A stretch of 32,500 nucleotides of DNA, from contig NZ_CADDZT010000057.1 of assembly GCF_902812655.1 (NCBI RefSeq), forward strand, positions 1 through 32,500, in the 5' to 3' direction. The translations under genes and the position numbers were made by a program. Source of the stretch: Candidatus Frankia meridionalis. Its GTDB lineage: Bacteria > Actinomycetota > Actinomycetes > Frankiales > Frankiaceae. Under the pieces are notes generated by a model. That model was not told the DNA's origin. It made no database searches and worked only from the letters and a program-made list of their open reading frames with translations. Shown here in pieces: positions 1 through 6,139 of the stretch (position 1 is the first letter of the stretch; each line of letters begins with the position of its first letter).

Positions 1-918
1 TACATGGACCATCAAAGAAAGTCCTACAAATTAAGACTCGGGCCTGTTTCGATGAAACCTCGATGAAAGCCCACAGAAGGGCCAAAGCACAACAAGCCTA
101 CCCATCATCAAAGCAAGCCCAAGCCCATGCAAGACAAGACTCATTGTCATGGAAGCCCTTTCCTTACTCCTCCATATAGTCTATGAGAACGTTTTTCTGA
201 CCAACTCTCATGGCTTTAGGAGGGGGCCCATAAGCTAGCTCTCGCCTTCTTCAGGATTTGCTCCTAAATTCCAGCTATGATCGACCTTTCGAATGAATGA
301 AGTTAGAAGCTAAGGGCTTTGTTCGAGTGCTTTGCCAATCATTCTTCTATGTACGATAGTCATAAGGCAGGGAAAAGAAAGGCAGCTAGGAAGACAAGCT
401 AATCCGAAAGGGCCAGCCCGAGCCAAGGACTAACAAGAAAGAAGAGAGACCGAGATGTGATTGCATACCTACCCGGTGCCTGAGTACATGTGCAAGCACA
501 GCAAAGCCGTTTTGTGAGCAACTCCATAAGATAAGTGGATTCAAGTTGTGTGCCATTTTTGCTTTTTCTTTCTTTTTCTAAATGTACTCAAATCGTGTAT
601 AGCATTTTGTTCAGAATAAAGCTTTCTGTCTGCCAAGCTGCAACTGCCCCAATGACCTCTGTAGTATTGAATGGGAACTTTTTTTTAAATGTTATATGTA
701 AAAGATGAGCATAGATGCAAATTTTATTGAAAACTAGGGTAGTGAGTGAAGGGGCCCCGAAAAAGGAAAAACGAAAGCCTAGGCTCATTTGATCATAAAT
801 AGAGTCTTTCTTTTGTTTGGGTTGTATATAATAAGGGAAGTGACTGATATCAGACTTGTCTGTGTTGTTTATTCCATTGTTCATGACTTCTGTTTCCAAT
901 TGTATCAGAAGGGTGATA
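1..918. other. Spacer, probably nuclear-derived flank of the invertase fragment
   Basis: No mitochondrial gene or RNA gene is recognisable here. The only sizeable reading frame (588-899, minus, 103 codons) has no recognisable domain. The adjoining invertase fragment begins in mid-gene, so some of this stretch may be an upstream intron of the same nuclear gene. I could not identify the preceding exon, which should encode a motif like NYDQVF. The left limit of the nuclear insertion is unknown. Confidence 0.4.
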
Positions 919-1660
919 GACTTTTTTCCTAGCGGCTTAGCCTATCTAATGAAAAAATCTGCAGAACCTTATGTAAAGAATTTTATGTTAAAAACTCTCC
1001 ACCCCCGGAGAAAGGGATTGAGAACTTGACTCTTGGAGAAGGAGTAATGCCCGCAAGTTTGAAGGTTCTGGTTCTCTATGACTCTCATCGTCAAAAGGAC
1101 ATATTGGTTGCCGATTTTGGTGCCAGTGCAATAAGAAGAGTTGCGCCTGTCGATTCAGGGTTCTGGTGGATTATACTGCTGAGGTCTTACACCAAGTGCA
1201 CGCGTGATTATGCTCTGGCAGAACTCCCTTAGGTCCAGAAAGAGATGAAGTTGATAGTAAACCTCTGCCTCTCAGATGGCTTTCTTTTCCAACACTTCTA
1301 TGTGGAGATGGATGTAATATGATTGATAGTTTAAGTTTACTATTTGAAGTTTTCCAAAGCCTCAATAGGGGTTGGTTCCAGCCTTGTTTCGTAGTCCATT
1401 TTTTTATTTGAATAATTATAACACTGAATTATAATTTATAGATTTCACTTTACTTGTACCTGGAACAGAGAATACGGGTATCCAATTGAAATCCAGGCAC
1501 TTTTTTCTATTTTGCGCTTAGGTGTGCTCGGCAGATGCTAAAACAAGAGCATGATGGCAAAGAGTTGATCGAGCGAATTTATAAGCGAATCACAGTTCTC
1601 AGCTATCACATTCAGAAAGACGACTGGCGCAATTTCACTCAATTAAATAAACTATACCGT
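919..1660 (+). pseudogene. Alkaline/neutral invertase fragment (GH100), nuclear-derived, broken
   Basis: The intact plant enzyme hydrolyses sucrose to glucose and fructose and is nuclear-encoded. This piece covers roughly the middle of the protein. Visible segments are [11 protein letters not shown] (from 919), [13 protein letters not shown], then [25 protein letters not shown] and [20 protein letters not shown] (from about 1029). After these come LCGDGCNMID (ending near 1332), EYGYPIEIQALF (about 1470-1505), and ARQMLKQEHDGKELIERIYK followed by LSYHIQK and FTQLNKLYR. The [16 protein letters not shown] signature is diagnostic of the family. It cannot be functional: there is a frameshift near 1005-1015, a GAG-to-TAG-like stop at 1230-1232, a small deletion near 1283 and a 2-nt insertion near 1506. 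About 135 nt of non-matching sequence separates MID from YGYPIE, where an intron is plausible. The match stops at LYR (1660), just before the expected YKTEEYS, again a plausible exon end. Retained introns would indicate DNA-mediated transfer from the nucleus. Confidence 0.93.
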
Positions 1661-2817
1661 TAAAAAACGGAAAATCACCAATAAAATTTCTTTCTTTCTC
1701 TCCCCGCTGTAGTAGAGGCAGTTCCGTAAGAGTGGTAGAGCCTCTAACGTTGGTGACCACATATTGACTCTCTGAGGTTTGATATCTCAGCCATATATTC
1801 TGCTATTACCCTATATATACAAAGCCGCCTCGGTCTTCAACTCTCTCCAGGACAACAGAGTCTTTGTTTAGGATGGCAGCGATTCTACCATTTGAGACAA
1901 ATTGGCCATTGGGGAAAATGCTTTTGGCAAATCGTGTACCCCGGCAGAGAATTCAATTATGATGGAGCTCGCTCCGTGAGAAGAGACTAATCTGTGAAAT
2001 GACGTGGAAGTTCTATTTTCTTTTCTTTGTGGTCTACGCCCTACCTTTCTTAAGGTAAGAAATAAGAAACAACATTTGAATCTTGGTTTTTACTTTTTGA
2101 AATGTAGTGAGTCTCGTAGGATAAAGAAGGTGTGTACCTATGTCCCGAAATCCGGATGTGGGACCATCCGCGAGCCTTTTCCTTGAGTTAGCGTTGAGGG
2201 CCCAGGTTGTCTGCCCCATTGGCCTATGGCTAAGGTGCATTTTATTTTTGTTGAGTTGTTGTAGAAGGGGGTTTTGGGTCTATCACCATTTCGGTATGGT
2301 CTTAGGCGGGTTCACCGCTTTTTGCTAAGCTGAGTCTAACTGCTGACCTCCCGTCTCAAGTCCCTCTTTTTCTTGCAGGAGCGATGTAAACTATTAGGCT
2401 AGCCTTCTAATGGGCTAAGTTACCTTTCTTTGTCTTTATTTAGTTTCCCTGCTCTCTTGCATCCAGTACTGGCTTTCTCTTTCAGGTAGTGAAGTGTATA
2501 CCATTATTGATGGTGCACGAGCGATCGTCATCTTATTCTAGCTTTCTTTCCTTTTTTGGAAGCATTCCCGATCCTTTCCTTCCCCTCTTTCCAGTGGTCG
2601 AAGCCGGCTAAGGGCCATTTCCTTTGCCAGCCTTCCAGTCTTAAGTAGTCCAATCCCTTTTTTTCGTATAGTGAAGAACTGGTTTTCCGTTAGTCCCTTA
2701 TTCTGATACTGAGAAGGGGAACTTCTTCCTTTAGGAGTTGGAATCTCTGAAAGCGGGGGAATTTACGGGTCTTTTTCCATACCCCTAGCGGCAAAGGTAA
2801 TTTAATAGAAGATTGCC

Positions 2818-2837
2818 CCTGATATGACTAAGCGCTA
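2818..2837. repeat. 20-bp dispersed direct repeat, copy 1
   Basis: CCTGATATGACTAAGCGCTA recurs exactly at 27330-27349 in the same orientation. Flanks diverge at once, so this is a short dispersed repeat of the kind that litters angiosperm mitochondrial spacers. Confidence 0.85.
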
Positions 2838-3136
2838 TTTTACATCAAAGATGAAGGAAGATTCAAATATTCACTTTAGGAAAGCAATGGACCTTTAGCC
2901 GACAGATGGAACCCTCGCAAAAACCGAAAGGAGGAGTGATTCACTTCGGGGTAGGAGCCCGTTACACGAGGATTAATACGACTAGACGAATGTGTCATAT
3001 ACGGAGGAACTTAGTCAAAGACTTCCCGATCCTTAACTTAAGAAGGAGATAACTCAACCAACAAGGCAATTCCGCCCTCAAGTGTCCCGCCTTTTAAAAG
3101 AAAGAAGGAAGACCCTACTAAAACACTAAGATCCGG

Positions 3137-5207: not shown

Positions 5208-5283
5208 TACGGCTTACGCAGTTGATCGGATCAGATAGCCGTTCGGGCAACCAACCAACACATAAAATTCCGATCAACAACTT

Positions 5284-5371
5284 GGAGGTATGGCTGAGTG
5301 GCTTAAGGCATTGGTTTGCTAAATCGACATACAAGAAGATTGTATCATGGGTTCTAATCCCATTTCCTCCG
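5284..5371 (+). tRNA. trnS-GCU: tRNA-Ser (GCU)
   Basis: This tRNA decodes AGY serine codons in mitochondrial translation. The 7-bp acceptor pairs GGAGGTA (5284-5290) with TTCCTCC (5364-5370), with one U-U mismatch at the sixth pair. The discriminator is G5371. The anticodon GCT lies at 5318-5320 in loop TTGCTAA. The long variable arm typical of class II serine tRNAs is present (ATACAA paired with TTGTAT). The T arm is ATGGG-TTCTAAT-CCCAT. CCA is not encoded and would be added after transcription. It is first of three tRNA genes in one orientation, a set commonly grouped in angiosperm mitogenomes. Confidence 0.97.
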
Positions 5372-5745
5372 GCACGGAAGTGGAACGGGCGGGCGAAATT
5401 ACGTGAGAGAAAGAACCTCTTGGTGGAGTCCCCCCGAGGACGGAATAGCACGACTTAGTGACTAGGAGCGGAGGGAGAGCCCGTTGTGCCTTGTTTTTGT
5501 TTGACCGGCCTATCTTCTTTCTATAAGCAAGCTCCCTCCGGTTGTCCAGTCCCTGGGCTGGGCGGCTCTCGGTTCTTGAGCATGTTGGGAGATTAGGCGG
5601 CAGTTGAAAGAGCTGCTCGAAAGCTTGACGAAGAAGCAAGCGAAAAAAGCCCTTTACTAAAATAAAATAGTTAGGGCTTTTCCCTTACTAGTCAAGTGGT
5701 AAGGTAGGGCGCTATTCGATGAAGAAAACATACTTTAGGAAAGTG
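5372..5745. other. trnS-trnF intergenic spacer
   Basis: No gene is recognised. Open frames that overlap the tRNAs here, on both strands, are by-products of tRNA sequence. This is probably a co-transcribed spacer removed by tRNA end processing. Confidence 0.6.
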
Positions 5746-5819
5746 GTTCAGGTAGCTCAGCTGGTTAGAGCAAAGGACTGAAAATCCTTGTGTCAGTGGT
5801 TCGAATCCACTTCTAAGCG
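5746..5819 (+). tRNA. trnF-GAA: tRNA-Phe (GAA)
   Basis: This tRNA decodes UUY phenylalanine codons. The acceptor is GTTCAGG (5746-5752) against TCTAAGC (5812-5818), discriminator G5819. The D arm starts AGCTCAGCTGG. The anticodon GAA (5780-5782) sits in loop CTGAAAA closed by AAGGA/TCCTT. The T arm is AGTGG-TTCGAAT-CCACT. The fourth acceptor pair is C5749 against A5815, a mismatch. The same C4-A69 mismatch is known from bean and potato mitochondrial tRNA-Phe, where C-to-U editing restores the pair. The same editing is expected here by inference. Confidence 0.97.
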
Positions 5820-6064
5820 GGAAAAGGGTCCAAAGGACACGTAGCCTGCCGGGTTTGGAAATGAAAGAGGAAGGAAGAAAAAACAAAATGTGAGCGCTCC
5901 CGCACTATACGGCTTTTTGGCGTCGCCCTATCTTGCTGGAGGTATCTTTTCTAAAAAAAGCGGTGGATTACTCGGATTGGTTCTCGCGTCCCTGTGCCCA
6001 AAAGGATGGGCGAGTTTGGTTTGAGTCTTCATCGATCGGGTGGATATGCTCCGGGGGGGTGAGA

Positions 6065-6139
6065 CGAGGTGTAGCGCAGTCTGGTCAGCGCATCTGTTTT
6101 GGGTACAGAGGGCCATAGGTTCGAATCCTGTCACCTTGA
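6065..6139 (+). tRNA. trnP-UGG: tRNA-Pro (UGG)
   Basis: This tRNA decodes CCN proline codons. The acceptor CGAGGTG (6065-6071) pairs with CACCTTG (6132-6138), including one G-U, and the discriminator is A6139. The D arm is GCGC...GCGC-type. The anticodon TGG is at 6100-6102 in loop TTTGGGT, closed by TCTGT/ACAGA. The T arm is ATAGG-TTCGAAT-CCTGT. It is the last of the trnS-trnF-trnP group, 245 nt after trnF on the same strand, and is the native mitochondrial type. Confidence 0.97.

Follow-up and report, generated by a model that had tools for sequence, protein, structure and literature searches.

The question raised by this locus is how a piece of a plant nuclear gene came to lie in mitochondrial DNA deposited within a bacterial genome, and whether its divergence can tell when it arrived there. 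The window (the whole analyzed stretch of 32,500 nucleotides) covers the initial 32.5 kb of contig C57 (117,166 bp), base 1 being the contig end, in a prokaryotic assembly of 5.3 Mb with 101 contigs and 68% GC. The bacterial contigs have 63 to 73% GC and are ~95% coding; contigs C57 and C59 have ~45% GC, and no stop-to-stop frame of 150 codons was found within the 32.5-kb window. Mitochondrial genes present are cox2, a portion of nad2, and an atp4-like ORF in C57, and nad6 and rps4 in C59; the names atp4 and rps4 come from reading the sequence, where rps4 had nothing beyond an S4-domain match and atp4 had no domain match. A tRNA cluster, trnS(GCU), trnF(GAA), and trnP(UGG), at 5283..6139 on the plus strand marks the contig as plant mtDNA. 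Both contigs are plant mitochondrial DNA, and the mitochondrial setting proposed in the initial annotation was borne out by cox2, the nad2 part, the mitochondrial tRNAs, and the GC content of 45%. Contig C58, almost entirely masked, was left out of the interpretation, and C60, considered as plant rDNA, was rejected since it is a bacterial rRNA operon.

The host plant was approached through the nodulation genes of the symbiont. NodC was found above the cut-off and NodA was absent in the bacterial part of the assembly, with NodA present in a congener genome. Candidatus Frankia meridionalis Cppng1 originates from nodules of Coriaria arborea, was likewise deposited as 101 contigs, and has nodC and no nodA (PMC9392346, PMC6735867). 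On these matches, C. arborea is very probably the host. The Cppng1 metagenome-assembled genome (MAG) holds ~170 kb of host mtDNA, namely, C57 together with C59 (53,494 bp), and its contamination estimate is only 0.48%. Elsewhere in this DNA, cox2 (C57 81121-81951, L023:8621-9451, minus strand) forms one uninterrupted 277-codon frame and appears to be intronless; the melon paper does not have cox2 among its listed intron-bearing genes (PMC3175227). An AT-rich 200-codon frame (C57 97126-97725, L024:4626-5225, minus strand) gave a weak Ribosomal_L27_C match below the cut-off and no clear family, and a 167-codon frame in C59 (14029-14529, L012) has by eye the look of a gypsy-type retrotransposon protease region, with no Pfam match.

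A plant-type GH100 alkaline/neutral invertase fragment, frameshifted and interrupted by stops, lies at 913-1670 of the window. That GH100 segments occur here in order, broken by a stop and frameshifts, had been noticed before and was confirmed by translation, Pfam, and tblastn. The family PF12899 matched twice (E 1.9e-27 and 1.3e-14), with scores of 96.5 and 54.2 bits, the gathering cut-off being 23.6. Arabidopsis CINV1 searched against the window by tblastn gave a combined E of 7e-46 (HSPs of 117, 64.7, and 30.0 bits), the best score among forty shuffled 32.5-kb windows being 28.9 bits. In a frameshift-aware alignment to the CINV1 structure 6ttj, residues ~125-334 were matched in order and collinearly. 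Reading of 850-1760 in three frames placed the segments in all of them: one ending in KNFMLKTL in frame 1 (913-999), one ending in NLCLSDGF in frame 3 (1008-1283), FPTLLCGDGCNMID in frame 2 (1283-1328, letters from about 1286), YGYPIEIQALF in frame 3 (1472-1505), and FALRCARQMLKQEHDGKELIERIYKR...LSYHIQKDDWRNFTQLNKLYR, followed by a stop and KTE, in frame 2 (1502-1670). They make up a degenerate exon at 909..1328 on the plus strand, supported by the stronger Pfam match, tblastn, and the alignment and corresponding to CINV1 residues ~125-264 (VRDF...MID), and a degenerate 3' exon piece at 1469..1670 on the same strand, which carries the second Pfam match and corresponds to residues ~269-334 (YGYPIEIQALFF...LYR, stop, KTE).

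The reading frame breaks at ~1003-1008, ~1284, and ~1506, and in-frame stops occur at 1230 (TAG) and 1661 (TAA), with another TAA at 1682 in the weakly aligned tail. The match does not end abruptly at LYR, as the initial annotation had it; it runs past the TAA at 1661, which replaces the Y/F between LYR and KTE, and similarity continues to ~1670. It also starts, at 913, slightly earlier than was previously stated. A gapped NKF remnant at ~1681-1690 possibly continues the match, which is doubtful. Beyond the 3' exon piece, ~200 remaining codons of the invertase gene are missing. The catalytic residues of GH100, which we take to be D188 and E414 of InvA, are the Asp in MID and a C-terminal Glu; the Asp of MID is kept in the fragment, the region of the C-terminal catalytic Glu is missing, and no intact frame holds both. 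Judged from its sequence, the fragment is a non-functional gene truncated on both sides.

Its closest solved relative is Arabidopsis CINV1 (PDB 6ttj) with E 1.6e-61, compared with ~7e-41 for cyanobacterial InvA. In a joint alignment, identity to CINV1 was 63% (195 positions) versus 42 to 47% to five prokaryotic GH100 enzymes (Anabaena InvA, Alr0819, two Cyanomargarita paralogues, and one Acidithiobacillus enzyme), and 20 residues of the fragment were common to CINV1 and present in no prokaryotic sequence of that alignment. The earlier identification as a nuclear plant-type alkaline/neutral invertase is upheld by these values. The motifs are beta-like, and the fragment, close to the beta member CINV1 as the plant sequence of the comparison, may belong to the beta (cytosolic) clade. 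CIN genes are nuclear (PMC10661998), and the gene matched is thus one that mitochondrial gene sets lack. That the fragment could be a bacterial GH100 gene, of Frankia or another bacterium, is suggested by the deposition of the contig within a bacterial genome; this origin was rejected and has practically no probability left, given that the nearest relative is CINV1 rather than the bacterial enzymes, that the GC content, coding density, and genes of the contig are those of a plant, and that no other GH100 match was found in five congeneric genomes. A degenerate YPIEIQALF pattern had two matches only in 84,980 prokaryote genomes, L107, a genuine cyanobacterial GH100, and L108 from Bacteroidetes, rejected as GH100 with no such open frame at the site; the pattern had no match in viral contigs.

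The two exon pieces are separated at MID/RRMG, before YGYPIE, by a T-rich gap of ~140 nt (1329-1468/1470), so the gap of about 135 nt between MID and YGYPIE reported initially is real. At 31%, its GC content puts it in the bottom 1.1% of the contig's 140-nt windows. A GT donor in phase 1 occurs at 1329 and another at 1335, with AG acceptors at 1468 and 1470, which outlines a putative retained spliceosomal intron of GT-AG type and phase 1 at 1329..1468 on the plus strand (alternative AG at 1470). In vascular plants, beta-clade invertase genes contain three introns, with phases 0-0-1 (PMC10661998; also PMC6995568), and the third one (Ic) of beta CIN genes is in phase 1 (PMC10661998). The phase of the gap agrees with this third intron, although a phase would agree by chance in one case out of three and the dinucleotides GT and AG occur frequently, which makes this support for an intron and not proof. 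The papers searched state phases only in their text, and the precise exon limits in beta CIN genes were sought there and not found. Judged by the published phases, the gap is probably a true intron. Upstream, a T-rich region with 35% GC at 541..908 on the plus strand (left limit arbitrary) is the probable 3' part of another spliceosomal intron of the invertase gene; it ends at 908 with the acceptor-like sequence TGTTTCCAATTGTATCAG, a strong 3' splice site, and the first homologous codon (913) follows five bases past this end.

The phase-1 GT-AG gap, its low GC content, and the second acceptor at 908 together make an origin at the DNA level likely. The proposal of the initial annotation that the gap is an intron and the piece came as DNA thus stands as the likelier reading, on the match of the phase-1 GT-AG ends to the published 0-0-1 pattern. 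Transfer through RNA, with an mRNA-derived piece into which the ~140-nt gap was inserted later and no intron involved, is improbable. GT and AG close to the gap ends may arise by chance; against this, the gap combines GT-AG ends with the phase 1 published for intron Ic, its sequence is T-rich and unusually low in GC, and a second splice-acceptor-like sequence lies nearly at the start of protein similarity.

A second Coriaria mitochondrial DNA was available for comparison in the congener MAG G004 (5.0 Mb, ~190 contigs), which matches CiT1_Ci_nod from C. intermedia nodules. It contains ~198 kb of Coriaria mtDNA in contigs C139 (127,267 bp) and C140 (71,029 bp), sampled as loci L116-L122 and L131-L134; this DNA is rearranged relative to C57/C59 and ~99.5% identical by substitutions. 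Blocks totaling 87 kb align between G004 and C57/C59 with 0.48% substitutions. From a synteny breakpoint at 2905, the window is collinear with this second mtDNA at 98.6% identity, and no counterpart of 1-2904 was found anywhere in the G004 assembly. An empty insertion site was sought in the C. intermedia assembly and not found. The absence of 1-2904 argues only weakly for a recent insertion because such absence is common: ~38% of the known non-N C57+C59 sequence, mostly from C59, has no counterpart in G004, and the share in C57 alone is 26%. The left flank (1..540) resembles mitochondrial intergenic DNA in its 5-mer composition (84th percentile), the right flank (1691..2904), which has no C. 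intermedia counterpart, is also mitochondria-like (78th percentile), and the fragment at 909-1690 is in the 7th percentile. The window is thus mitochondrial by homology from 2905 and by composition only at 1-540 and 1691-2904, the left side being the contig end.

The case for integration in mtDNA comes from this single contig and its composition, and the chief rival explanation is a chimeric contig end, in which the assembler joined nuclear DNA (1-2904) to mtDNA at about 2904/2905 and no transfer took place. Less than 1 kb separates the fragment from the contig end, and collinearity begins exactly where the part absent from C. intermedia stops. We consider an artifact of this kind unlikely, since both flanks are mitochondria-like in 5-mers and differ in this from the fragment, missing counterparts are frequent in these contigs, comparable breakpoints occur all along C57, and single-copy nuclear DNA should be too thinly covered in a Frankia-enriched library. 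Plant mitochondria take up foreign DNA, and the fragment might have been acquired horizontally, with a different plant as the source instead of the nucleus of Coriaria itself. This route is very improbable; it has no positive evidence in its favor, and the resident nucleus is the simplest donor.

The time of insertion was addressed through the mitochondrial substitution rate. Renner et al. 2020, cited in PMC9392346, dated the split of northern and southern Coriaria to ~57 million years before present, and 0.0048 substitutions per site over 2 × ~57 million years correspond to ~4.2e-11 per site per year. Among the invariant GH100 columns, defined as identical in plant, cyanobacterial, and Acidithiobacillus sequences (six references), 8 of 61 were changed in the fragment, from which a decay of ~0.06 (0.026 to 0.12) changes per nonsynonymous site was inferred. 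At the mitochondrial rate, the observed damage would need 0.6 to 2.9 billion years, and the expectation over 57 to 82 million years is 2 to 3 substitutions in 780 nt; the rate estimate covers alignable mitochondrial blocks only, and the gap is still more than tenfold. Mitochondrial decay is far too slow, and nearly all of the damage therefore predates the transfer, the gene having almost certainly been a pseudogene or a diverging paralogue already in the nucleus. The idea that the divergence could date the transfer thus fails, with a rate of ~4e-11 implying ages of 0.6 to 2.9 billion years. Of the eight changes, the majority are conservative (D/E, L/M, F/L, E/D, A/S, D/N, and I/L), a hint that the gene was under partial constraint before it died. 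Copia-type remnants are present on the minus strand at C57 39339-39794 (L002:6839-7294) and 65243-65746 (L022:12743-13246), with domain matches to SH3_retrovirus (E 5.8e-27) and RVT_2 (E 6.7e-7, below the cut-off). They are older than the split because they lie in blocks common to both Coriaria mitochondrial assemblies, and their open frames within these shared blocks support slow mitochondrial decay.

The history we favor, with good confidence, is the insertion of nuclear DNA carrying an already decayed piece of a beta-clade invertase into Coriaria mtDNA, which was then co-assembled with the Frankia MAG. The donor piece would have been nuclear DNA from a dead beta-CIN copy, holding parts of two exons and one or more introns. 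It may have entered intergenic mtDNA of the host, very probably C. arborea, by end joining and would since have been in stasis, inert in the mitochondrion; the host mitochondrial contig was co-assembled with the nodule symbiont Cppng1 and deposited within the bacterial MAG. We infer decay before transfer, the order of events, the donor, and the species identity. A more specific version, that an old intron-bearing nuclear pseudogene was kept almost unchanged in the slow mitochondrial genome (~4e-11 per site per year), is speculative but conceivable; if true, the mitochondrion acts as a fossil record for an invertase paralogue that the nucleus has since altered or lost.

The insertion of nuclear DNA into the mitochondrion is a further example of an ordinary event, nuclear fragments in plant mitochondria being well known. 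It provides a clear case in which a clock based on counting mutations in a mitochondrial insert would be badly misleading, and dead nuclear copies can be preserved by slowly evolving mitochondria. Two Frankia cluster-2 reference MAGs contain ~170 to 200 kb of host mtDNA, which could mislead studies of symbiont gene content, and the host mtDNA in both provides partial mitochondrial sequence for Coriaria; a limited literature search found no paper on a Coriaria mitochondrial genome.

Among known systems, the fragment is like CINV1 (PDB 6ttj) in its collinear residues ~125-334 and beta-like motifs, and unlike it in being truncated on both sides, 63% identical, and disrupted by stops and frameshifts. 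Its gap is in phase 1, as is the third intron in the beta genes of tracheophytes (PMC10661998). The melon mitochondrial genome is ~46% nuclear-like (PMC3175227), and as in melon, which belongs to the same order, Cucurbitales, remnants of a nuclear gene and of retrotransposons lie in mitochondrial intergenic DNA; in contrast to the nuclear-like DNA of melon, this is a piece of a named gene that apparently includes an intron. The binning of host-plant mtDNA with the genome of a nodule symbiont resembles other organelle contamination of MAGs, and differs from the usual case in that two MAGs of one genus carry mtDNA, which enabled the comparison of two Coriaria mitogenomes.
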